From Lutibacter sp. Hel_I_33_5 (GTDB lineage: Bacteria; Bacteroidota; Bacteroidia; Flavobacteriales; Flavobacteriaceae), in contig NZ_VISM01000001.1 of the NCBI RefSeq assembly GCF_007827455.1, forward strand, positions 2,333,501 through 2,397,500: a stretch of 64,000 nt of DNA, written 5' to 3'. Each line of letters starts with the position of its first letter. Position 1 is the first letter of the stretch. The notes beneath the pieces were generated by a model that saw nothing but the letters and a program-made list of their open reading frames with translations, made no database searches and was not told where the DNA came from. Positions 18,177 to 44,022 of this stretch are shown piece after piece. The translations under genes were made by a program, and so were the position numbers.

Positions 18177-19685
18177 TTATAATTTTAAAAGTTCTTCTAC
18201 AAAAGCTCTAGAGTTCGATAATCTGGGTACCTTATGTTGTCCGCCTAATTTATTTTTTTGTTTTAACCAATCGTAAAACAATCCTTTTCTTGCTTGATGA
18301 ATTTTAGGTAAAGCCAACGTCATGTTATTATATCGCTTTGCTTCATAATCAGAATTGATAGATTTTAAAGCATTGTCTAATAATTCAATAAAATAATCTA
18401 AATTTTCAGGAGCTTGATTGAATTCAATAATCCACTCATGACTACCACTTTTTTTATCTTCCATAAAAATTGGTCCAACCGTATAATCAGAAATAGTAGC
18501 ATTCGTTTTTTCACAGGCTAATCGTAAACCTTCTTCAGCATTTTCTATAATTAACTCTTCTCCAAAAACATTAATATGATGTTTTGTTCGTCCAGTAATT
18601 TTTATTCGATACGGATTTAGATCTGTGAATTTTACAGTATCACCAATTAAATAACGCCACAATCCACCATTGGTTGTAATTAAAATAGCATAGTTAATAT
18701 CTTTTTTCACTTCTGATAAGGGAATTGCTTCCGAGTTTTCTCCATCATATTCATCCATCGGAATAAACTCATAAAAGATACCGTAATCTAACATTAGCAG
18801 TAATTCTTTAGAATTATTTCTGTCTTGTAACGCAAAGAAACCTTCCGATGCATTATAAGTTTCATAGTATTTAAAATCTTTTTTAGGAATTAGTTTTTTG
18901 TATTGTTTTCTATAGGGGTTAAAATTTACGCCGCCATGAAAATAGACTTCCAAATTTGGCCAAACTTCTAGAATATTGTCTTTTCCAGTTTTTTCTAAAA
19001 CACGATTTAATAGTACCAACATCCAAGAAGGAACACCAACTAAACTGGTAATATTTTCATTGATAGTTTCATTAATAATGGCTTCCATTTTGGTTTCCCA
19101 TTCCGCCATTAATGAAACTTCTTGACTGGGAGCAGAACTAAAGTCTGCCCAAAAAGGTAAGTTCTCTGTTATGATTGCAGATAAATCTCCGAAATACGAA
19201 TTATTATCTTCGTAAATAGTTGTGCTACCGCCTAATTTTAAGCCTTTACCTGTAAACATTTTGGTTTCTTCATTGTTGTTTATATACAGGCACAACATGT
19301 CCTTTCCAGCTTTCATATGGCAGTATTCTAGCGCTTCATCACTTACAGGAATAAATTTACTTTTTGCGTTAGTTGTTCCGCTAGATTTTGCAAACCATCT
19401 TATATCACTTGCCCAAAAAAGATTTTGTTCTCCTTTTCTACAACGCTCTATTAAAGGTTCTATACTTTCATATTGTTGAATAGGAACATTTTTAGCAAAT
19501 TCTTTATAACTTTCTATGGATGAAAAATTACAGTTTGTACCAAATTCAGTATTTTTTGCACTATTTAATAGTTTTAATAAGAGTTCTTCTTGTACATCCA
19601 TAGGATATTTTAAAAACAACTCTATTTGGTGCTTTCGTTTCTTTAAAAACCAAGAAATGATAGAATTAATAAACGGAAACGCCAT
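18177..19685 (-). CDS. GH3-family acyl-adenylate-forming protein
   Basis: A 502-residue member of the GH3 auxin-responsive promoter family, related to acyl-adenylate synthetases that link carboxylic acids to amines. The ATP-binding P-loop-like motif is FAKSSGTTNAKSKFIPVS (about residues 105-122). Later motifs include YNASEGFFALQ and LWRYLIGDTVKF, then ITGRTKHHINVFGEEL, typical of the C-terminal swivel domain. Bacterial members are common in flavobacteria and their substrate is unknown. The start ATG is near 19685, divergent from the DUF2797 gene with a 47-base gap. Confidence 0.92.
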   Translation of the reverse strand: MAFPFINSIISWFLKKRKHQIELFLKYPMDVQEELLLKLLNSAKNTEFGTNCNFSSIESYKEFAKNVPIQQYESIEPLIERCRKGEQNLFWASDIRWFAKSSGTTNAKSKFIPVSDEALEYCHMKAGKDMLCLYINNNEETKMFTGKGLKLGGSTTIYEDNNSYFGDLSAIITENLPFWADFSSAPSQEVSLMAEWETKMEAIINETINENITSLVGVPSWMLVLLNRVLEKTGKDNILEVWPNLEVYFHGGVNFNPYRKQYKKLIPKKDFKYYETYNASEGFFALQDRNNSKELLLMLDYGIFYEFIPMDEYDGENSEAIPLSEVKKDINYAILITTNGGLWRYLIGDTVKFTDLNPYRIKITGRTKHHINVFGEELIIENAEEGLRLACEKTNATISDYTVGPIFMEDKKSGSHEWIIEFNQAPENLDYFIELLDNALKSINSDYEAKRYNNMTLALPKIHQARKGLFYDWLKQKNKLGGQHKVPRLSNSRAFVEELLKL

Positions 19686-34400: not shown

Positions 34401-35267
34401 TTATTTCTTGCTTAAAGGATAGATTTCTTGCCCAATAAAATCTTGCGGAAAAACGTCATCATCATCAAAACCAAGTTCAATATTTTTTCCATCTGAAGGT
34501 ATATAATCTGTTTTAAAAAGATAATCCCATAGGCTTAAAGTGAGTCCAAAATTAACACCTGTTTTATTCGGAATTTCTTTACTATGATGCCAAATATGCA
34601 TTTTAGGATTATTAAAAATATATTTGAAAACACCCAAAGAAATGTTGGTATTGCTATGATTAAAATGGCCCCATGTAAGTGTAAATAAATGCACTAAAAT
34701 AAAATCGTCAATTCCAAAACCTATCAATGCTAACGGAATATATTCTAGGGTTCTGTATACTACAGTTTCCATCCAGTGAAAACGTAAATGAGCTGCAAAT
34801 CCCATTTCTTTTACTGAATGATGGACTTTGTGAAAATTCCATAAAAAAGGAACTTTATGTAGTAGTCTGTGGATAAAATATTGAATGAAATCTCTTACCA
34901 GAAAGAGAATCAATAATTGACTCCAAAAAGGAAACTCTTCTACATGAAAAAAAGTAAGATTGTCAATTCCGATAGCTTTTAAATTATCGTTAAAAAAAGT
35001 TACAGCAACATTAGAAATTGCATTATAACCAATTAAAGAAAATAGAAAGAAATTAAAGAACATGTAAAAAGTATCTAGCCAAAAATCACGTCTAAAAAGA
35101 GCTTGTTTTTTTCGCCAAGGAAGTAAGATTTCTATAAAAAAGAAAATTAAAGAAATAGCAATTAACCAATAGAAATAATTACCCCAATGTGGGTTTAAAA
35201 TTTCATTGATTAGATAGTTGTAATATCCAACAAAAGACTCTTTTGCTATGTCAAAATATTTAGTCAA
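34401..35267 (-). CDS. sterol desaturase/fatty acid hydroxylase family protein
   Basis: A 288-residue membrane enzyme of the fatty acid hydroxylase superfamily with di-iron His motifs: HRLLH (133-137), HKVHH (146-150) and later HIWHH. It has about four membrane spans. Members hydroxylate or desaturate lipid chains, sterols or carotenoids. The start overlaps the stop of the preceding glycosyltransferase gene by 8 bases, so they are cotranscribed and both may act on membrane lipids. Substrate is unknown. Confidence 0.9.
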   Translation of the reverse strand: MTKYFDIAKESFVGYYNYLINEILNPHWGNYFYWLIAISLIFFFIEILLPWRKKQALFRRDFWLDTFYMFFNFFLFSLIGYNAISNVAVTFFNDNLKAIGIDNLTFFHVEEFPFWSQLLILFLVRDFIQYFIHRLLHKVPFLWNFHKVHHSVKEMGFAAHLRFHWMETVVYRTLEYIPLALIGFGIDDFILVHLFTLTWGHFNHSNTNISLGVFKYIFNNPKMHIWHHSKEIPNKTGVNFGLTLSLWDYLFKTDYIPSDGKNIELGFDDDDVFPQDFIGQEIYPLSKK

Positions 35268-36930
35268 AATTGATATTTTTTCTAGTGCTATTTATAGACC
35301 AATTCATGTTTTTATTTATAAAACCAAATGCTATTTTATAATCTCCTTTTATATTTTTTGATGTTACTTTAAACTCGATTTTTTTAGATTGATTAGGATT
35401 TATTAAGATACTGTTTTCTTCTAAATTTCTCAAATTATCATCCCTTTTTTCTTTACCAATTATTGAAATATAGATTTTTGAAGAAGATATATTTATAGTT
35501 TTATTTCTGTGATTTTTTAAGGTGATAAATCCTGAGAGCACATCTTTTTTTAAAGAAATGTCTTTTGGATTAAAATCAATTTTAATGTTGTTAAACGAGG
35601 TGAAATTATCAATTAATTTATAATGAATTGTTTTTCCCATTCGGGTTTTTAAATCGATACTAGTATTAAAAGAGTGTCTTTTAATGAGCATAATATCTTT
35701 ATTCTGAATAGAATCTTCGTACTGCCAAATTTGATATTGAGATTTTTTAAACTCACCTGGAAACATAGCGATACCTAATTTTTTGGCATAAAAAGAATAC
35801 ATTGGTGCTTCTCGTAGAGATTCATTTCCAGCATCAAATAAAACAGGTTTTCCTTGTGAAATTTTTGTGATGTCTTCTGCCCATAAGTTTCTATCGTGAT
35901 AATAATCGGTACCTAGTTTATTAGACGGAAATATCTGAAAAGATAAGTACAATCGAATTATAAGTAACAAAAAGACAAAGGGTAACACTAAACTATAAAA
36001 AAGTGTTTTCTTTTTTAAAGATGAATAATATTTAGCAGATAAAATAATGATAGGGAAAATTGCAATAGATGTCCAATGAATATGAACAAAACCTTTTAAA
36101 GAACTAAATAAGAAAAATAAAAAAGATCCAATTGCTATAAATTTCAATGTTTTTTCAAATTGATTTTTTGTTTTAAAAATAAAGGGAATCCAAATTAAAC
36201 CTAATCCAATTATTGGGATTTGTTGACTTATAAATTCGCCAAAAAAGCGAGTTTGAAAAGGATTAGATCTTCCCACTAAATGAAATTTTAAAGAAGCAAA
36301 ATTATGATCTATTTGCCATAATATATGAGGTAAATAAAACACAATAACTAACGCTAGAGCAGTATAAAAATATTTGTTAGTCAGTAATTTTAAGTTAGAG
36401 ATAATTACAAATCCAATAAATAAAATTGCATGATATTTAGCATAGAACATCAAGGCTATAATAATGCTTAGAATAAACATATTCTTTTTAGAACTACGTT
36501 CTAAAAATTGTTTATAATAATATAAAAAAGCCATGCTTAATGCAACCAAACTAGAATCTGGAAAGGCAATAAATGTGATATAGTTTAAAAGAGGAAATCC
36601 TAAAATTATGAGATATAAAAAATGCTTTTCTTTTCTTGTCCAAGGTCTAATTTTAAAAAGAAAATAGAGTGCAATTGAAAGTAACAGTACATTTCCAAAA
36701 CGAACAGCGATTTCACTTTCAAAAAATAGTTTACCAAAGTTTATTAATAAAGAAATTAAAGGAGGATGATCGTAATACCCCCAATCTAATTCTTGTGAAT
36801 AAAACCAATAATAGGCTTCATCACTTGTAAGTTCAGTTGTAGCAATTTGAAAAAAATTCAACAAAAACCAGAATACTATAAAATGGTTTTGGTTAAATTT
36901 TTTAGAAAAAAAATGAATGATTTGTTTCAC
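35260..36930 (-). CDS. ArnT-like GT39/83 polyprenyl-phosphate glycosyltransferase
   Basis: A 556-residue polytopic protein. The first periplasmic loop has the GT-C signature ELTSDEAYYWFYSQ and DWGYYDHPPLISLLI (about residues 33-65). About ten to twelve membrane spans and a soluble C-terminal domain of roughly 170 residues follow. ArnT-like enzymes transfer a sugar from an undecaprenyl or dolichol carrier to lipid A or protein. It is the first gene of a two-gene unit with the sterol-desaturase-family gene. Acceptor is unknown. Confidence 0.88.
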   Translation of the reverse strand: MKQIIHFFSKKFNQNHFIVFWFLLNFFQIATTELTSDEAYYWFYSQELDWGYYDHPPLISLLINFGKLFFESEIAVRFGNVLLLSIALYFLFKIRPWTRKEKHFLYLIILGFPLLNYITFIAFPDSSLVALSMAFLYYYKQFLERSSKKNMFILSIIIALMFYAKYHAILFIGFVIISNLKLLTNKYFYTALALVIVFYLPHILWQIDHNFASLKFHLVGRSNPFQTRFFGEFISQQIPIIGLGLIWIPFIFKTKNQFEKTLKFIAIGSFLFFLFSSLKGFVHIHWTSIAIFPIIILSAKYYSSLKKKTLFYSLVLPFVFLLLIIRLYLSFQIFPSNKLGTDYYHDRNLWAEDITKISQGKPVLFDAGNESLREAPMYSFYAKKLGIAMFPGEFKKSQYQIWQYEDSIQNKDIMLIKRHSFNTSIDLKTRMGKTIHYKLIDNFTSFNNIKIDFNPKDISLKKDVLSGFITLKNHRNKTINISSSKIYISIIGKEKRDDNLRNLEENSILINPNQSKKIEFKVTSKNIKGDYKIAFGFINKNMNWSINSTRKNINFD

Positions 36931-36965
36931 GAACTCTTGTGTGTAATTGTATTCTTTTCTAAAGT

Positions 36966-37004
36966 AAAAACGTTTACTTCAAAGTTAATGAAATAAACGT
37001 TTTT
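36966..37004 (-). terminator. terminator hairpin of the arsenosugar operon
   Basis: AAAAACGTTTACTTC and GAAATAAACGTTTTT form a 15-bp stem with one mismatch around a 9-base loop, in the 99-base gap between the arsM stop and the next minus-strand gene. Read on the minus strand, the hairpin ends in TTTTTACTTT. A short palindrome (CCGATTATCGG, 37019-37029) lies at the arsM stop. Confidence 0.6.
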
Positions 37005-37029
37005 AAAATAATTTAATACCGATTATCGG

Positions 37030-37998
37030 CTAACAACAACCTCCACCATCATAATGAAACGTAGAAGGAGAAAAGAAAATATCATCTCTACCTAAAGCTT
37101 CTAAAGCGGCAGCAGTTTTATCACAAATTGCTAAGGGTTGGTTTTTTAGTAATGTATGTCCTAAACCATCATCAAAATAATCATCTTCACCATAATAAAT
37201 AGCCGCTTTTCCAGTAAAAATACAAGGGCCGTCAGCAGGCATCGGATCTTTAATTGCAGCAACTTCTATAGATTCAATATAAATTAATTCGTCTGTTGGG
37301 TAATTCTTAGGGTCAAGAATTCGATATGGTTTTCTAGCTCTAATTTCTATGGTTCCAAAACCAGCATCAGTTAATGCTTTTACATAATCGGCAATTGATA
37401 AACTTCCGCTTAAACATAAAGCACGTAAACGTTCATCGTTACGTAATTCATCATTCATTGGTTGTTCACACGTAGGATCACTCATTACTAAACGTCCGTG
37501 AGGTTTTAAAACTCTATGCATTTCTGCAATCGCTTTCTTTAAATCATCAGACTTAAAAATATTAAACAAGCAGTTTTGCGCAGCAACATCTATAGAATTA
37601 TCATCCACAGGTAAATCCATTGCATCTCCTTTTCTAAGGTCTACAAAATCACTCTTAAACCAATCATTCTGTTCTTCAGCAATTTTAAAATTTTTGCGCG
37701 ATGCTTCAAGCATTTCATCAACAACATCTAAACCAATTACGCCATCTTTATTTCTATTAAAATAAGCGAATTGTAGTAATTCCATTCCACCACCAACACC
37801 AACATATAGCATCTTAGGATTGTTTGTTAAATCGCGTGCATGTACTGTAGAACCACAACCGTAATTCATTTCTTGCATGATTCTTGGAATCTTTAATCCA
37901 GGTAATTCCCAAATAGGATTTGTAGTACAGCAAAGCCCTACATCTGGTGTTAAAGCTGCCTCTTTATATACGTTATGTGTGGTTTCTAAGTAACTCAT
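37030..37998 (-). CDS. arsM: arsenite S-adenosylmethyltransferase of arsenosugar biosynthesis
   Basis: A 322-residue class I methyltransferase. The SAM site is LYVGVGGGMELLQFA (about residues 64-78) with GLDVVDEM after it. Cysteines in conserved positions (C48 in MNYGCGS, C143 in AQNCLFNIF, C177 in DPTCEQP, C195) fit arsenite binding by an ArsM-type thiolate set. The C-terminus ends GGGCC and the N-terminus has CC at 23-24. It should methylate As(III) to di- or trimethyl forms in the cytosol. It is the last gene of an operon with arsS, a PNP and a TIGR04282-type transferase, which supports the arsenosugar subtype. Confidence 0.88.
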   Translation of the reverse strand: MSYLETTHNVYKEAALTPDVGLCCTTNPIWELPGLKIPRIMQEMNYGCGSTVHARDLTNNPKMLYVGVGGGMELLQFAYFNRNKDGVIGLDVVDEMLEASRKNFKIAEEQNDWFKSDFVDLRKGDAMDLPVDDNSIDVAAQNCLFNIFKSDDLKKAIAEMHRVLKPHGRLVMSDPTCEQPMNDELRNDERLRALCLSGSLSIADYVKALTDAGFGTIEIRARKPYRILDPKNYPTDELIYIESIEVAAIKDPMPADGPCIFTGKAAIYYGEDDYFDDGLGHTLLKNQPLAICDKTAAALEALGRDDIFFSPSTFHYDGGGCC

Positions 37999-38071
37999 TT
38001 TTTTTAGTTTTCGGTTTTCAGTTATCAGTTTTTAGTCAAGTTACAGACTGTTATCTGATTTACTGCAAACT

Positions 38072-38884
38072 TTATATTGTTTTAATTAATTCTTTAAATA
38101 ATGTTATCATTTTTGGTTCTGTTTTTCCAGCAATTTCAATGATTTCTGCAATATTAACAGGTTGTAAATTTTTAGGATCACATTCATCGGTTAACACAGA
38201 AATTGCGGCACAGTCTAAATTCAATTGTTTAGCAACAATGACTTCAGGAACTGTACTCATACCAACGGCATCCGTTTCTAAAATTTGTAACATTCTATAT
38301 TCTGCACGTGTTTCAAGTTGAGGTCCTACAACACTCGCGTAAATACCTTCATGCAATTCTATATTATTTTCTAAAGCAATTTCTTTAAGTTGATCATTTA
38401 TTTTTTTCGAATACGGTTCTAACATATCCGCAAAAATATTTCCAAAAGTGTTAGCTCCTTTAAATGCTAATGGCGATCCACCTTGTAAATTAATATGATC
38501 ATCAATCAACATTAAATCTCCTTTTTTATAGTTTAGATTGATGGCACCAGCAGCATTTGAAATTAACAATGTAGTGATGCCTAAAGAATGCATCGTTCTA
38601 ATTCCATAGGTAACTTCCCAAAGATTATAGCCTTCATATAAATGAAAACGACCAGACATTACCAATACTTTTTTACCAGATAAGGTTCCGTAAATTAATT
38701 TTCCAGAATGAAACTCTACAGTGGCAGTTGGAAAATGTGGAATTTCAGAATAGGCAATTTCTTGTTCAATTGTAATCTCATCAACTAATTTTCCTAAACC
38801 AGTTCCTAAAACAATTCCTAATTGAGGGTTTGTAATTCCTTTTGATGTAAGAAAATCTGAGGTTACTTTTAAATGTTCAATCAT
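38072..38884 (-). CDS. purine nucleoside phosphorylase (in arsenosugar operon)
   Basis: A 270-residue trimeric-type PNP with LGIVLGTGLGKLVDEI, MSGRFHLYEGY (phosphate and sugar sites) and ISNAAGAINLNYKKGDLMLIDDHINL. A VGMSTVPEVIVAKQ segment carries the active-site Met, and VLTDECD contains the base-contacting acidic position. It cleaves purine nucleosides with phosphate to base plus ribose-1-phosphate. Its place between arsM and arsS-pathway genes suggests it removes adenine from a dimethylarsinyl-deoxyadenosine intermediate, as MTA phosphorylase does for methylthioadenosine. That is inference; a housekeeping purine role is the alternative. Confidence 0.9.
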   Translation of the reverse strand: MIEHLKVTSDFLTSKGITNPQLGIVLGTGLGKLVDEITIEQEIAYSEIPHFPTATVEFHSGKLIYGTLSGKKVLVMSGRFHLYEGYNLWEVTYGIRTMHSLGITTLLISNAAGAINLNYKKGDLMLIDDHINLQGGSPLAFKGANTFGNIFADMLEPYSKKINDQLKEIALENNIELHEGIYASVVGPQLETRAEYRMLQILETDAVGMSTVPEVIVAKQLNLDCAAISVLTDECDPKNLQPVNIAEIIEIAGKTEPKMITLFKELIKTI

Positions 38885-38895
38885 AAATTAATTAA

Positions 38896-39624
38896 CTATT
38901 CTATCACCAATTTTCTAGTCGTTTTTTTATCACCTTTAATTACTGAAAGTAAGTAAATTCCAGTATTTAAATTAGAAAGGTCTAATTTGTTTGTGCCTTT
39001 TTCTTTAGGTTGATGATATACTTGTTTCCCTAAAACATCAAAAATACGGATTTCAGTTTTAGCCATGTCTACATTAGTAAATTGAATACTATTTTTTGCA
39101 GGGTTAGGGTAAAAACTAAAGTTAGTTAACGATGTTTTTTCAACATTTAATATTGAACAAGAATTTGCTGTAAATGGTGTGTATTTTCCATAATCCCAAA
39201 ATGCTGTATATTGAAGACAATAGAAAAATACTGTATCATATTTAGTGATATCTGCTCCATTTGGAATGTTTGCGGTGTAAGACTGAACGCCAGAAAAACC
39301 TACTAAACCAAAAGAAATATTATCAACTGTAGTTGGATTTAAACCTTTTAATTCATCATTTGTTTTTCCTTCAGATTTTATTAAATATGCTCGTACATCT
39401 GGCCCAGAAGCAGTAGAAAAATTACTGCCAAAATCTAGATTTACACTGGTTCCGTTTGCGTTTAAAACTACAGAAACATCCCCGGAAATATTGTATGATT
39501 GTGTTGATGTATTATTACCAAAGCTAGAAGCAGATTCGGTACATTGAGCGCTTGTGTTAAGAACTAAAAAAGAAGTTAAAGCAAAAAATAATATTGCTTT
39601 TCTAAAAGGTAAAGTTAGTTTCAT
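38896..39624 (-). CDS. DM13-domain secreted protein with T9SS sorting domain
   Basis: A 242-residue protein with a signal peptide (ending near SAQ, residue 27) and a DM13-like domain (about residues 40-157). The domain has GDVSVVLNANGTSVNLDFG, SGPDVRAYL, a GVQSYTANIPNGADI block and VFFYCLQYTAFWDYGKY with a Cys at 136. A C-terminal T9SS type A sorting domain follows (FYPNPAKNSIQF to TRKLVIE). DM13 has been proposed to be a cytochrome-like redox or electron-transfer module. Its presence inside the arsenosugar operon (11-base gap to PNP, 3-base gap to the transferase) suggests an extracellular redox step with arsenic or its thiols. That is inference. Confidence 0.8.
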   Translation of the reverse strand: MKLTLPFRKAILFFALTSFLVLNTSAQCTESASSFGNNTSTQSYNISGDVSVVLNANGTSVNLDFGSNFSTASGPDVRAYLIKSEGKTNDELKGLNPTTVDNISFGLVGFSGVQSYTANIPNGADITKYDTVFFYCLQYTAFWDYGKYTPFTANSCSILNVEKTSLTNFSFYPNPAKNSIQFTNVDMAKTEIRIFDVLGKQVYHQPKEKGTNKLDLSNLNTGIYLLSVIKGDKKTTRKLVIE

Positions 39625-39627
39625 AAT

Positions 39628-40233
39628 TTATTCTTTAATGATTTTTAACAATGAGTCGTGTTTTTTTAAGTCTTCATACACATCAATGTCATTTAATTCT
39701 TCAAGTTGAAATGTATTTTGATTCTTTAAATCTTCTAAAGTGGCTTTTCTTACAGAAGAAGTTCCCCAATTTTTATTTTGAAAGATTTCTGGATAGTTTT
39801 TTTTCATCCCTAATAAATAGTACCCTCCGTCTTCTGCAGGTCCAATAACAGTATCATTTTTATCAAGTTGATAAAAAGCTTCATTTATAATTTCTTCTGA
39901 TAAATCAAATAAATCACTACCGATAATCATCACTTTTTCATATCCTTTTTTAAATGAATTTTCAAAAGCATTCTGCATTCTAAAGCCTAAATCATTTCCT
40001 GTTTGTTGATGTTTTTGATATATTGATGAATCCCAAATATCATTTTTTCTAATCTTAACAGAATAATAAACGGCCTTATCACAATCTAAATATTGAGTTA
40101 CCTTTTTAGTTTGATGTAGTAGTTTTTTGTAAATTTTTAAAGCATTTTTATCACCAATGGTTTTAGCGAGCCTAGTTTTTACTTTTCCTAATTCAGGATT
40201 TCTAGTAAAAATTAAAAGTAAGTTTTTACTCAT
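39628..40233 (-). CDS. TIGR04282/DUF2064-type arsenosugar biosynthesis glycosyltransferase
   Basis: A 201-residue nucleotide-sugar-transferase-like GT-A protein with LLLIFTRNPELGKVKTRLAK at the start and the motifs QTGNDLGFRMQNAF, IIGSDLFDLSEE and GPAEDGGYYLLGM. These match the DUF2064 family, one branch of which (TIGR04282) is named for arsenosugar biosynthesis. It should be cytosolic and move a sugar or glycerol-type group; the reaction is not proven. The gene overlaps the rhodanese gene by 8 bases and lies 3 bases before the DM13 gene. Confidence 0.88.
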   Translation of the reverse strand: MSKNLLLIFTRNPELGKVKTRLAKTIGDKNALKIYKKLLHQTKKVTQYLDCDKAVYYSVKIRKNDIWDSSIYQKHQQTGNDLGFRMQNAFENSFKKGYEKVMIIGSDLFDLSEEIINEAFYQLDKNDTVIGPAEDGGYYLLGMKKNYPEIFQNKNWGTSSVRKATLEDLKNQNTFQLEELNDIDVYEDLKKHDSLLKIIKE

Positions 40234-40747
40234 ATACTTTTTCTCCTTTTACTAACCACTGACTCCATTCTTTAGTACACGTATGTACTTTTTCGGTTGA
40301 TTTTTCTTTAGAATTAAAAACAGTATTACCGTTGTTTTTCCATTCAAAAATTCCGCCATATAAGTTTAGAACATTAGTATAACCAGCTTTTTTAAGTTTT
40401 TCTGCCACAATTTCCGATCGAACTCCTAAGCTACAATAAACCACAATTTTTGCATTTTTATTAGGAAGGTTTTTAGTTGTTTTTTTTAAGTTGAACTTAT
40501 CATACCCTACAAAGAGCGCATTTTTTAAATGACTGACTTTATATTCTTTTTTTTCTCTTGCGTCTAATAAAATAATGTTATTGTCAGCTAGAGTGGAGTC
40601 GAAAGGTTTTTTTGTTATTTTCTTTAAACTATCAACAGAAATATACGGAACACTTTCAGTATTATATTTTTTTAATAAATCTTTTAAACTCTCTTGAGAA
40701 AAAGAGTTTAAAGAAATTAATACAAATAAGAAGACTATTTTTTTCAT
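40226..40747 (-). CDS. exported rhodanese-like sulfurtransferase
   Basis: A 173-residue protein with a signal peptide (first about 18 residues) and one rhodanese domain: ILLDAREKKEYKVSHLKNAL, then the active-site loop VVYCSLGVRS with Cys105 and GGIFEWKNNGNTV. A C-terminal HTCTKEWSQWL adds another Cys. It is exported to the periplasm and may handle persulfide or arsenic-thiol species. In the arsenosugar operon it sits between arsS (33-base gap) and the TIGR04282-type transferase (8-base overlap). Its task in arsenic metabolism is inferred from context only. Confidence 0.87.
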   Translation of the reverse strand: MKKIVFLFVLISLNSFSQESLKDLLKKYNTESVPYISVDSLKKITKKPFDSTLADNNIILLDAREKKEYKVSHLKNALFVGYDKFNLKKTTKNLPNKNAKIVVYCSLGVRSEIVAEKLKKAGYTNVLNLYGGIFEWKNNGNTVFNSKEKSTEKVHTCTKEWSQWLVKGEKVYE

Positions 40748-40780
40748 TTATAAATGAACACTTAATTTTTCTAACAACTA

Positions 40781-41833
40781 TTACGCTACAACACCTTGGC
40801 AACTACTTCCTGCACCAGCAGTACATCCATAGCAATGTTGATTGATAATTATATTTCTGTTTTGTAATAATTCTTCGTTATATTCTGAAATGTGTTTTAC
40901 TTTACTAGCTACTTTTAAATTTAGCATTTGATTAAAATCACAATCGTATAAATTTCCGTCCCAACTAACCGATAAGGTATTGGTACACATTACATTTTCT
41001 ACTGCTAACGGATTATATGCTTCTACTAATGCATACATGTAATCTTCGTAATTTTCTGAAGCAATTAAATAATCTAAAAATCGACTGATTGGTAAATTTG
41101 TAATAGCAAAAAGTTGATGAAAATCGATGTTAAAATCCTCTTTCAACGCTTTTTTAAAGTCGTTTTCTAACGCCATTTGATCTCCAGGTAAAAATGCACC
41201 TGAAGGATTATATACCAAATCTAATTTTAAATTTGAACCTTCTTTTCCATACCCAACTTCGTTTAGCATTTGTAATGCTTTAATCGATTTGTCAAAAACT
41301 CCGTCACCTCTTTGTTTGTCTGTTTTACCACGTGTCCAATGCGGCATTGATGAAACTACATGAACATTATGCTTTTTAAAGAACTCAGGTAAATCGTAAT
41401 ATTTTTTATTAGCTCTAATGATAGTTAGGTTTGAACGAACGATAAAATCTTTAATTCCTGCTTTTGATGCTTCTTCTACAAACCACCTAAAGTTAGGATT
41501 CATTTCTGGTGCGCCACCAGTTAAATCTAACGTGTGAGCTCCAGTTTTTTTAATGACATCCAAACATTGCTGCATGGTTTCTACCGTCATAATTTCTTTT
41601 CTGTCAGGCCCTGCATCTACATGACAATGAGCACAAACTTGATTGCACATATACCCTAAATTAATTTGTAGAATTTCTAACTTTTTAGGACGTAAAGGAA
41701 ATTGATTGGTTTCTTTTATTTTTTTAGCAAACGTTGGTAATTCTCCATCAGCAAACATTCCGTTTGAAAGAATTTCTAACTGACGTTGTGTGTTTGCTAA
41801 ATCGTTATTTCTTGCTAATAGTGATTTCTTCAT
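40781..41833 (-). CDS. arsS: arsenosugar biosynthesis radical SAM protein ArsS
   Basis: A 350-residue radical SAM enzyme. The cluster motif is CNQVCAHCHVDAGPDRKE (C63, C67, C70). The C-terminal Cys-rich part ends HCYGCTAGAGSSCQG (C334, C337, C345), typical of ArsS, a family that in some species contains selenocysteine. Here all are ordinary Cys codons. ArsS is reported to attach a 5'-deoxyadenosyl group from SAM to dimethylarsenite, giving dimethylarsinoyl-deoxyadenosine, the precursor of arsenosugars. It is followed 33 bases later by a rhodanese gene and preceded by an arsenosugar-associated peroxidase-like gene. Confidence 0.92.
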   Translation of the reverse strand: MKKSLLARNNDLANTQRQLEILSNGMFADGELPTFAKKIKETNQFPLRPKKLEILQINLGYMCNQVCAHCHVDAGPDRKEIMTVETMQQCLDVIKKTGAHTLDLTGGAPEMNPNFRWFVEEASKAGIKDFIVRSNLTIIRANKKYYDLPEFFKKHNVHVVSSMPHWTRGKTDKQRGDGVFDKSIKALQMLNEVGYGKEGSNLKLDLVYNPSGAFLPGDQMALENDFKKALKEDFNIDFHQLFAITNLPISRFLDYLIASENYEDYMYALVEAYNPLAVENVMCTNTLSVSWDGNLYDCDFNQMLNLKVASKVKHISEYNEELLQNRNIIINQHCYGCTAGAGSSCQGVVA

Positions 41834-41835
41834 TT

Positions 41836-41936
41836 ATGCTGAACTTGTTTCAACTTCTCATTTTAATGGATCCTGATTTTCATCCGGATAAGCGACCTCT
41901 AAAATTTTGCTTTAGGCAAAATTAGAGCCTGCTTAC
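41836..41936. repeat. degenerate dispersed repeats with hairpin between arsS and its upstream gene
   Basis: The 99-base gap contains a decayed unit that reads ATGCTGAACTTGTTTCAACT, resembling common Bacteroidota GTCATGCTGAACTTGTTTCAG-type repeats, and an ATCCTGATTTTCATCCGGAT palindrome. A long imperfect hairpin follows at 41888-41936, with arms about 22 bases built on CTCTAAAATTTTGC and GCAAAATTAGAG. The hairpin sits directly on the stop codon of the upstream gene, so it may act as a partial terminator or mRNA stabiliser inside the operon. Confidence 0.6.
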
Positions 41937-42268
41937 ATTTCTAATTTATTCACTTTATTCATCATTTGAACTCCATGTACTAACGTTGCACCACTTTTTA
42001 TAGCAGCTCCAACATGAACAGCTTCCATCATTTCTTCTTTGGTAATTCCACGTTGTAAGCCATCTTTTGTGTATGATTCTATGCAATATGGACATTGTTC
42101 TGTATGAGAAACTGCCAAAGCAATTAAAGATTTTTCACGAGCAGTTAATGCTCCTTCTTCAAAGACTTTTCCATAATAATCAAAGAACTTGTTACCAAGT
42201 TCTTCGTTCCATTCTGTTATTTTTCCAAACTTTCTTAAGTCAGCCGGGTCATAATATGTTTTAGACAT
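41933..42268 (-). CDS. arsenosugar biosynthesis-associated peroxidase-like (CMD family) protein
   Basis: A 111-residue protein of the carboxymuconolactone decarboxylase/AhpD-like family with the CxxC-type active site HTEQCPYCIESYT in an all-helical fold. A short variant named for arsenosugar clusters starts MSKTYYDPADLRKFG, so I place the start at the ATG at 42266-42268. An upstream ATG at 42325 would add 19 unlike residues. It likely has peroxidase or thiol-disulfide activity in the cytosol. It precedes arsS with a 99-base gap full of repeats. Confidence 0.85.
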   Translation of the reverse strand: MSKTYYDPADLRKFGKITEWNEELGNKFFDYYGKVFEEGALTAREKSLIALAVSHTEQCPYCIESYTKDGLQRGITKEEMMEAVHVGAAIKSGATLVHGVQMMNKVNKLEM

Positions 42269-42341
42269 TTGTTTTATTTCTGTTGAAAAGTAAAAATACG
42301 AATTGTTTTCAAGCTTTTTTATCAAAAAGTAATAGTGTTTC

Positions 42342-43052
42342 TTACTTTCCGTTTAAACTCCAGTCGTATTTTAAATAACTAACTTTTGTTTTTTTGGTAG
42401 TTATAACATCTGAATATTTATTTAAATATTCTTTTAGAGAACCATTTGTTGTAAAGTCTTTTTTGTACCAATCAAATATTTTAGAAAGTTGAGCTTTCTT
42501 TTCAGAGACTTTATTTCTTTTAGGGTCATTAATAAATTTCTTCATTAATTCTTCTGTTTTTGCTTCGTAGTTTTCTTCTGTAAAAGCAAAGTTTCCTAAT
42601 TGTGGACAAGATCCTGAAGCACAATTTACCGCTACATGAATTTTTGGATCTTTATAATTCTTTCTTAAAACATCATGTTCAATATTATTTAAGGTATATG
42701 TTTTTCCACCAACATTTGCAAACGGAATATTCCAAGCATCTTTCCCTTTTTTCTTAACTTTCATGATGCTTTTTAATGGGTAATTTTTTAAAATTAATTT
42801 AACAGTATATGCATTATATGCATTTGCCCAAAAAGCTTTGGTTTTTGCTGCAGACCAAGATTTGTCTATTTTAGTTTCTACTAAACATGTTAAGTAAGCG
42901 TCTAGTTTAGCTTCATCTTTTTTGAAGCCTTTATAATCTACATTACCATCTTTATCTACATGCGTTTTTAATAATGAATCAAATTTTTCAGTTTGCGCAT
43001 TTATGTTAAATGTTAACATAAGAATAAAAATTATTGCGATACTTTTTTTCAT
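42342..43052 (-). CDS. exported DUF547 protein
   Basis: A 236-residue protein with a signal peptide (ending NINAQ) and a DUF547 domain. Conserved blocks are AFWANAYNAYTVKLIL, NIEHDVLRKNYKDPKIHVAVNCASGSCPQL and FDWYKKDF. DUF547 looks like a papain- or transglutaminase-type fold, with an invariant Cys in the CASGSCP segment and a His in KIHVAVNC. It is frequently found next to arsS/arsM genes. It is the first gene of the operon, so its promoter is in the 69-base gap upstream. Function is unknown. Confidence 0.85.
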   Translation of the reverse strand: MKKSIAIIFILMLTFNINAQTEKFDSLLKTHVDKDGNVDYKGFKKDEAKLDAYLTCLVETKIDKSWSAAKTKAFWANAYNAYTVKLILKNYPLKSIMKVKKKGKDAWNIPFANVGGKTYTLNNIEHDVLRKNYKDPKIHVAVNCASGSCPQLGNFAFTEENYEAKTEELMKKFINDPKRNKVSEKKAQLSKIFDWYKKDFTTNGSLKEYLNKYSDVITTKKTKVSYLKYDWSLNGK

Positions 43053-43121: not shown

Positions 43122-43823
43122 TTAATCGGTTATTTCTTCTCCGATTTTTAAGTTGAATTTTCTTCTAAAAAGATACACAATTCCGTATAAAATTGGTGTG
43201 TCTAGGGCAGCTACTATTATTTTAAAGAGTATTCCGCTTATTAGTAAGCCTAAAAACAAGTCCCATTTTATGATTCCGAAAGAGCATAATAAAAGTAAAA
43301 CTGTTAATGTGTCTACAATTTGTGACGTAAATGTTGAGAAGTTATTTCGAAGCCATAGGTGTTTTCCTTTGGTTAGATTTTTCCAAAAATGATAAACTCT
43401 AATGTCTATAAATTGTGCAAATAAATAAGCTAACATAGAAGCTAATACTGCTAATGGTGCAGCGCCAAATACATCTAAAAAAGTATCGTCTTTAACAGGA
43501 GACCATGAAATTGCTGGTACACTTTTAGATACATATATTATTAAAAGAGAAAAAAATGAAGCGAAAATTCCGGCAATAACAACTTGATTAGCTTTCTTTT
43601 TTCCATAGATTTCTGATAAAATATCGGTGATTAAAAAAGTGATAGGATAGGGTAATAAACCTACAGAAATTTCAAATAATTTAACATCAAATAGTTCTAT
43701 GTCGATTGGATACCAATAAAAGAATTTTTGAAAAATTAAATTTGAAGTAACTAATGATGCAATAAACAACGCAGCTAAAATTAAATAGATTAATTGTGCT
43801 GAGGATTTTTGTTTCGCTGTCAT
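43122..43823 (-). CDS. queuosine precursor transporter (YhhQ/QPTR family)
   Basis: A 233-residue inner-membrane protein with about six spans and the family motifs SNLIFQKFFYWYP, GLLPYPITFLITDILSEIYG and AQFIDIRVYHFWK, ending in short C-terminal acidic residues. The family imports queuine, preQ1 or related 7-deazaguanines for tRNA queuosine. It complements queA in the same window. It ends 69 bases from the arsenosugar operon and is a separate gene; no preQ1 riboswitch-like structure was recognised upstream. Confidence 0.9.
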   Translation of the reverse strand: MTAKQKSSAQLIYLILAALFIASLVTSNLIFQKFFYWYPIDIELFDVKLFEISVGLLPYPITFLITDILSEIYGKKKANQVVIAGIFASFFSLLIIYVSKSVPAISWSPVKDDTFLDVFGAAPLAVLASMLAYLFAQFIDIRVYHFWKNLTKGKHLWLRNNFSTFTSQIVDTLTVLLLLCSFGIIKWDLFLGLLISGILFKIIVAALDTPILYGIVYLFRRKFNLKIGEEITD

Positions 43824-43932
43824 AAAACGAAGTTAATGAATTTAGATTATTAGATTGCTAGACTTTCTAATTTTTAAATTCGATTATAAATATGCTTAGC
43901 CCCGATTGAAGCATTTGTTTGAGCTCTTTTTT

Positions 43933-44011
43933 GTCATTGCGAATAAAATGAAGCAATCTGCTATTTTAATGAGATTGCCACAGTTTACAAAAAAGTAAAC
44001 TTCGCAATGAC
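43933..44011. repeat. palindromic dispersed repeat, type B (79 bp)
   Basis: It starts GTCATTGCGAATAAAATGAA and ends ACTTCGCAATGAC, so the ends are inverted repeats (GTCATTGCGAA). The first 27 bases match the inserted element in the GT gene at 23135-23206 (minus strand) with one or two differences. The inner part contains a second hairpin, TTTAC(N)GTAAA. Confidence 0.8.
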
Positions 44012-44022
44012 AAAAAAAGCGA

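Follow-up and report, generated by a model that had tools for sequence, protein, structure and literature searches.

The closest described counterpart of the locus reported here is the arsM/arsS system of Synechocystis sp. PCC 6803, in which ArsM and the radical S-adenosylmethionine (SAM) enzyme ArsS catalyze the first steps of arsenosugar synthesis (Xue et al. 2019, cited in PMC8552651; ArsS, Cheng et al. 2021, cited in PMC12159101; both sources accessible in part), the radical SAM step being the one that adenosylates arsenic (PMC12159101). At the level of protein families, NCBIfam holds an arsenosugar set of five models, namely NF038099, TIGR04167, TIGR04169, TIGR04282, and TIGR04283. Here, we analyzed a 64,000-nucleotide stretch of Lutibacter sp. 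Hel_I_33_5 (Flavobacteriaceae; contig NZ_VISM01000001.1, positions 2,333,501 to 2,397,500), hereafter called the window, which carries an eight-gene cluster at positions 37030-43052 of its minus strand. The ArsM and ArsS proteins of this cluster belong to the same named families as those of Synechocystis, and four of the five NCBIfam models are matched over their cut-offs. The cluster differs in that ArsM and ArsS sit with TIGR04282, purine nucleoside phosphorylase (PNP), rhodanese, DM13, and DUF547 proteins, whereas the accessible parts of the Synechocystis sources describe no steps after ArsS. Furthermore, the TIGR04283 glycosyltransferase is absent from the Lutibacter genome (best score 64.4 bits against a cut-off of 182), and the models or domains of PNP and DUF547 bear no arsenosugar name.

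An earlier note on this DNA had described the eight genes as lying on one strand in tight order; all eight open reading frames (ORFs) were indeed found there with the domains that it had named, as follows:

42342..43052, minus strand: DUF547 protein with an N-terminal signal-like segment (PF04784, 83.9 bits)
41933..42268, minus strand: CMD/AhpD-like protein TIGR04169 with the CxxC motif CPYC (192.5 bits, cut-off 120)
40781..41833, minus strand: ArsS, radical SAM enzyme with the CX3CX2C motif CNQVCAHC (TIGR04167, 442 bits, cut-off 300)
40226..40747, minus strand: rhodanese with a signal-like N-terminus and the active loop CSLGVR (NF045521, 200.4 bits, cut-off 145)
39628..40233, minus strand: TIGR04282 protein, CofC-like, a proposed nucleotidyltransferase (215.9 bits, cut-off 134)
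38896..39624, minus strand: protein with a DM13 domain and a T9SS type A C-terminal sorting domain (PF10517, PF18962, TIGR04183)
38072..38884, minus strand: PNP of the trimeric type (NF006054, 322.4 bits, cut-off 218)
37030..37998, minus strand: ArsM, arsenosugar-type arsenite methyltransferase (NF038099, 573.9 bits, cut-off 400)

The CMD ORF as listed opens at a TTG (42325); because its TIGR04169 match begins only at ORF residue 22, translation more likely begins at the ATG at 42268. With this start, the intergenic gaps from DUF547 to ArsM are 73, 99, 33, -8, 3, 11, and 73 bases, the rhodanese and TIGR04282 genes overlapping by 8 bases. Four of the proteins (ArsM, ArsS, TIGR04282, and TIGR04169) exceed the cut-offs of NCBIfam models described as arsenosugar biosynthesis; in the earlier count of four to five proteins with arsenosugar links, the rhodanese can be the fifth by its model name only (rhoda_near_glyco). 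Thus, the cluster is of a known kind, already named by NCBI, and the full eight-gene set represents one of its variable forms.

We read this locus as an arsenic-detoxifying biosynthetic cluster, in which ArsM and ArsS are followed by phosphorolysis by PNP, activation by the TIGR04282 protein, and an exported arm that acts on the product, and we assign this reading a probability of roughly 0.6. Following the papers cited above for its first two steps, ArsM would make dimethylarsenite and ArsS would join the 5'-deoxyadenosyl group of SAM to arsenic, giving 5'-deoxy-5'-dimethylarsinoyl-adenosine. What was determined here is which genes are present, how they are ordered and placed together, and which residues occupy the PNP pocket; the steps after ArsS and the chemistry of the exported proteins are inferred. 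PNP would remove adenine by phosphorolysis to give 5-dimethylarsinoyl-ribose-1-phosphate, and the TIGR04282 protein would activate this arsenoribose-1-phosphate so that it can be passed on to glycerol or a lipid, a transfer that relatives probably carry out with TIGR04283. Outside the cytoplasm, the rhodanese, DM13, and DUF547 proteins would act on the product or on its redox or thio state. A biosynthetic phosphorylase acting on a 5'-modified adenosine is likewise found in the fluorometabolite and nucleocidin pathways (FlB/NucPNP; PMC8694150, accessible in part), a likeness of role; those pathways differ from the present proposal in their fluorine or methylthio chemistry.

The proposal draws first on the company that ArsS keeps in Bacteroidota. 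Close relatives were represented by 80 loci, the best 80 of 587 relatives from one ArsS scan (several end at contig ends), and partners were counted with profiles built from first-round matches. CMD occurred in 77 of these loci, TIGR04282 in 75, PNP in 61, rhodanese in 53, ArsM in 51, DUF547 in 39, TIGR04283 in 33, a fatty acid hydroxylase/sterol desaturase-like protein (FAH) in 22, and DM13 in 11, the TIGR04282 count taking in a shorter paralog. A sample of the class Bacteroidia (29 regions) gave CMD 21, TIGR04282 18, DUF547 10, PNP 9, ArsM 9, TIGR04283 5, and rhodanese 1, and a sample of the phylum (100 regions from 99 genomes, out of 128 ArsS places beyond those already taken) gave CMD 78, TIGR04282 56, TIGR04283 43, ArsM 18, DUF547 13, PNP 9, and rhodanese 7. 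CMD was a same-strand neighbor of ArsS in 76/80, 21/29, and 78/100 loci of the three collections, respectively. Locus L194, which overlaps L165, was skipped. The commonest order was CMD-ArsS-rhodanese-TIGR04282-PNP-ArsM, often followed by FAH, DUF547, and TIGR04283, whereas DUF547 lies upstream of CMD in the window and in L004, L005, L007, L124, L142, L212, and L213, which indicates that the partner set is retained while the order shifts. The arsenosugar assignment made in the earlier note is supported by the curated models and by conserved neighborhoods in Bacteroidota and, as described below, Proteobacteria. Its view of the eight genes as the complete set is not supported, since TIGR04283 is lacking here yet present in many related loci, and since DM13, DUF547, and rhodanese come and go among them. 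In a variant seen in L145, L147, and L206, an epimerase and an SDR protein stand between TIGR04283 and ArsS, with no PNP within the stretch seen.

To gauge the linkage between PNP and ArsS, we used a sample of the window's family with mostly one genome per genus (199 genomes searched), in which ArsS was present in 159/199 genomes and PNP in 190/199. Counting the listed places only (150 each for ArsS and PNP), 122 PNPs come from genomes for which an ArsS is listed as well. Of these, 91 lie at most 15 kb from ArsS, at a median distance of about 2.1 kb among the 91, whereas about 1.05 would be expected by random placement in 3.5 Mb. The clustering of PNP with ArsS is therefore far above chance. 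In the Bacteroidia sample, the nine regions with a linked PNP (9/29, the window not counted) include seven from outside the window's family, and a second PNP was found in 9/30 genomes with ArsS versus 5/148 without it.

The pocket residues of PNP were examined by aligning the cluster protein to the PNP chain 2a0x, a human PNP altered at position 257. The cluster PNP has D233 at the position of human N243 and I245 at that of human H257, and so is without the canonical 6-oxopurine pair Asn243/His257, whose two members read the purine and the 5'-OH, respectively. With Ile in place of the 5'-OH-binding His, the enzyme should accept a 5'-substituted 6-aminopurine nucleoside. It exceeds the cut-off of the general PNP family model (NF006054, above) and falls below that of the inosine/guanosine-specific model TIGR01700 (269.9 of 293.35). 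All 78 linked PNPs with a readable site have Asp233 together with Ile or Leu245 (68/68, 9/9, and 1/1 in three sets; three linked fragments without a readable site were left out), and none has His. Among 51 other, unlinked PNPs, which like a further set of 20 PNPs were chosen by hand rather than drawn at random, the 50 readable ones carry at position 245 His (27), Leu (14), Val (5), or Ile (4). In a tree in which the site's own column was kept and from which three rows below 75% coverage and one fragment were excluded, all 68 linked rows group with 22 of the 23 other non-His rows on one side of a branch supported at 99/94, and the His rows fall outside it.

Could this PNP be an ordinary housekeeping salvage enzyme caught in the operon, which clears adenine or nucleosides and has no arsenic role? 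Nearly all genomes of the family encode PNP (190 genomes), 188 of them in a single copy, and the cluster PNP is the sole TIGR01697 member of its genome, so that for this genome the idea of an extra dedicated copy was rejected and the enzyme probably performs ordinary purine salvage too. Salvage alone nevertheless appears unlikely as an explanation: PNP and ArsS are found together repeatedly, in loci whose gene orders differ and in most of the listed cases. Moreover, six examined genomes pair a linked PNP with an unlinked one, and in five of them (G070, G079, G103, G130, and G521) the unlinked copy keeps His where the linked one has Ile or Leu; in the sixth (G081) the unlinked copy has Leu. Not part of this comparison are genome G624, which has two copies each of PNP and ArsS, and the second PNPs of G084 and G132, which were not among the listed places.

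A further argument against salvage alone comes from plasmids, some of which carry another phosphorylase in place of PNP. ArsS was found on 52 plasmid records, 47 of them from Burkholderia, and one Burkholderia plus five others were examined as six distinct loci. In Acinetobacter portensis, ArsS is accompanied by a TVP38/FAD oxidoreductase, DUF547, TIGR04283, TIGR04282, a methyltransferase, and a phosphate transporter, followed on the opposite strand by S-methyl-5'-thioadenosine phosphorylase (MTAP) and a sterol desaturase family gene; MTAP here is two genes away from TIGR04282. The Burkholderia glumae plasmid has TIGR04282, TIGR04283, and MTAP on one side of ArsS, with MTAP adjoining TIGR04283, and DUF547 on the other side. 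In Cupriavidus sp. KK10, TIGR04283, TIGR04282, an adjoining MTAP (TIGR01694, 276.2 of 274.85), and a radical SAM gene are followed by DUF547. These three clusters share ArsS, TIGR04282, and DUF547 with the window cluster and differ from it in having TIGR04283 and MTAP, with no PNP in the stretch seen. In total, MTAP is present in 3/6 and DUF547 in 4/6 of the plasmid loci, and MTAP was linked to ArsS in none of the 80 related, 29 class-sample, and 100 phylum-sample regions of Bacteroidota. Thus, a PNP without the 5'-OH histidine in Bacteroidia and an MTAP in three proteobacterial clusters keep the same gene company, and either should be capable of cleaving a 5'-deoxy-5'-substituted adenosine; the cluster PNP may work like an MTAP without being a member of that family. 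Alongside the Cupriavidus and B. glumae clusters lies a radical SAM protein that weakly resembles TrsS and tetraether lipid synthase (L209:13392-14864 and L210:11096-12493).

The same pocket change would also fit 5'-deoxyadenosine and methylthioadenosine, so PNP, or MTAP elsewhere, might salvage these SAM by-products rather than an arsenic nucleoside. Consistent with this, no separate MTAP was found in the Lutibacter genome, whose PF01048 (PNP_UDP_1) members are the cluster PNP and one protein at 18936. We regard this explanation as quite unlikely. Arsenic adenosylation, as presented in the accessible part of PMC12159101, should by our reasoning consume the deoxyadenosyl group instead of releasing it, and salvage itself does not explain the tight linkage to TIGR04282, with which PNP forms a same-strand neighbor pair in 49/80 related loci.

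As for TIGR04282, NCBIfam calls the family a glycosyltransferase. The cluster protein matches Pfam CofC (31.4 bits, cut-off 22), its G..K[TS]RL motif, which marks nucleotidyltransferases, is kept in 31/31 aligned rows, and its predicted model is confident (pLDDT, the predicted local distance difference test, 96.1). On these grounds we read it as an activating enzyme, which looks like a CofC-type nucleotidyltransferase. Relatives also have a second TIGR04282-like protein without the N-terminal nucleotide motif (24 ORFs without versus 63 with the motif in the 80 loci; e.g., L031:1823-2500 and L027:11124-11800).

Several results weigh against the biosynthetic reading. The linked PNPs are not one clade, the tree requiring four label changes, at least two of which are forced. 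Genomes that lack ArsS can likewise have a PNP with Ile, Val, or Leu245 (7 of the 18 such genomes chosen, the other 11 having His), so that the residue alone is no sign of an arsenic role; this also favors the salvage explanation. Asp233 was considered as an arsenic-specific adenine switch and rejected, because 48 of the 50 unlinked copies with a readable site have it as well, which makes it a general feature in Bacteroidia. The cluster PNP scores far under the MTAP model TIGR01694 (97.2 of 274.85), and the TIGR04282 protein far below the true CofC model TIGR03552 (30.5 of 105). All nine linked PNPs of the phylum sample (9/100) belong to the window's family, with 0/87 outside it, which shows that a linked PNP is dispensable for the pathway; MTAP, for its part, was not seen in the Thiodictyon, Pseudanabaena, and Hymenobacter plasmid loci within the stretch seen. 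The missing TIGR04283 counts on the same side. Finally, NucPNP is an imperfect precedent, as it mildly favors adenosine over methylthioadenosine and is inactive on sulfamoyladenosine (PMC8694150, in its accessible part).

The last component of the proposal is the exported arm. The N-terminal hydrophobicity (11-residue scale) of the rhodanese, DM13, and DUF547 proteins is 2.6-3.1, whereas the remaining five proteins of the cluster reach 1.7 at most, and by this measure the three look exported. Each has invariant Cys residues in the rows aligned: the rhodanese loop Cys105 is invariant in 18/18 rows, C28, C136, and C156 of the DM13 protein in 11/11, and N77, N80, H139, C144, and C149 of DUF547 in 31/31. 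As a guess, these proteins could form a thio-arsenosugar or carry out a redox step. DUF547 recurs beside ArsS across phyla; the 3.1-Mb genome has a single copy, which lies in this cluster, and none was found in 14 control genomes (0/14). Its predicted model is confident (pLDDT 93.5), and its sequence gave no convincing match to solved structures. A more specific, three-part route can be offered tentatively: an arsenic-nucleoside PNP (MTAP in some proteobacteria), TIGR04282 making a nucleotide-activated arsenoribose, and an exported arm finishing the product, for example as a thio-arsenosugar or as a surface- or lipid-bound form.

The signal-like N-termini of the rhodanese, DM13, and DUF547 proteins would also suit a cluster that makes envelope arsenolipids (arsenosugar phospholipids), with the exported proteins and the nearby FAH acting on the lipid. 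The recurrence of FAH in the related loci (22/80) and of a sterol desaturase family gene beside ArsS in Thiodictyon and in the Acinetobacter cluster points the same way. This explanation is doubtful, as no lipid-joining enzyme was identified and as the FAH of the window lies beyond both an inverted repeat and a PMT_2 gene. The genes flanking the cluster are as follows:

34401..35267, minus strand: FAH, a possible outer member of the cluster past the inverted repeat (PF04116, 105 bits)
35260..36930, minus strand: PMT_2 membrane glycosyltransferase, probably not a member (PF13231)
43122..43823, minus strand: queuosine precursor transporter, upstream of DUF547 (TIGR00697)

The 17-nt inverted repeat in question (94%, 7-nt loop) lies directly 3' of ArsM at 36965-37005; it is absent from the list of the terminator scan and is a possible transcript end of the cluster. 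Sigma-70-type promoter matches numbered 38, below the shuffled mean of 51.4. PMT_2 was judged unlikely to be a stand-in for TIGR04283, with no match of at least 60 bits across the 80 related loci. The queuosine precursor transporter holds the same position in the close relatives L004, L005, L007, and L142. Farther upstream, a perfect 17-nt inverted repeat with 57 nt between its arms (43927-44017) looks like a mobile repeat remnant. Across phyla, FAH and phosphate/sulfate permease genes recur near arsenosugar genes (L208, L209, L211, and the FAH-bearing related loci), hinting at lipid products and arsenate entry.

Beside CMD-ArsS, 14 of the 80 related loci carry a cassette of SusC, SusD, a sodium/solute symporter, and a metallophosphoesterase (e.g., L027:11124-18800), inserted before rhodanese or upstream of CMD, which may import phosphorylated arsenosugars. 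Such a cassette would be in keeping with genes that serve the uptake and breakdown of algal arsenosugars rather than their synthesis. This is very unlikely for the locus studied here, as none of the cassette genes was found near the window cluster and ArsM and ArsS catalyze the first synthesis steps in Synechocystis (PMC8552651, accessible in part).

Overall, we consider three points to be new: the exchange between PNP and MTAP together with the altered PNP pocket, the interpretation of TIGR04282 as CofC-like, and the association of DUF547 with ArsS across phyla. Among the papers listed from the literature covered, which excludes most subscription journals, nothing was found on this gene set or its PNP, and nothing direct on PNP or MTAP with arsenosugars or on DUF547 with arsenic. 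A search of the whole genome for the ACR3 arsenite pump, the only pump type covered, gave nothing over the cut-off (best 58.9 of 282.8 bits), and arsenosugar formation may therefore matter more for arsenic tolerance in this organism. The chemistry may also be common, given that ArsS occurs in 134/345 sampled genomes of the phylum, and a large share of the arsenic found in seaweed and fish consists of arsenosugars and arsenolipids (PMC8787705, accessible in part). Only ArsM and ArsS are assigned in the accessible parts of the pathway literature covered; the comparison offers a candidate for the next step, adenine removal, recasts TIGR04282, and links DUF547, which so far has no assigned function, with ArsS in more than one phylum.

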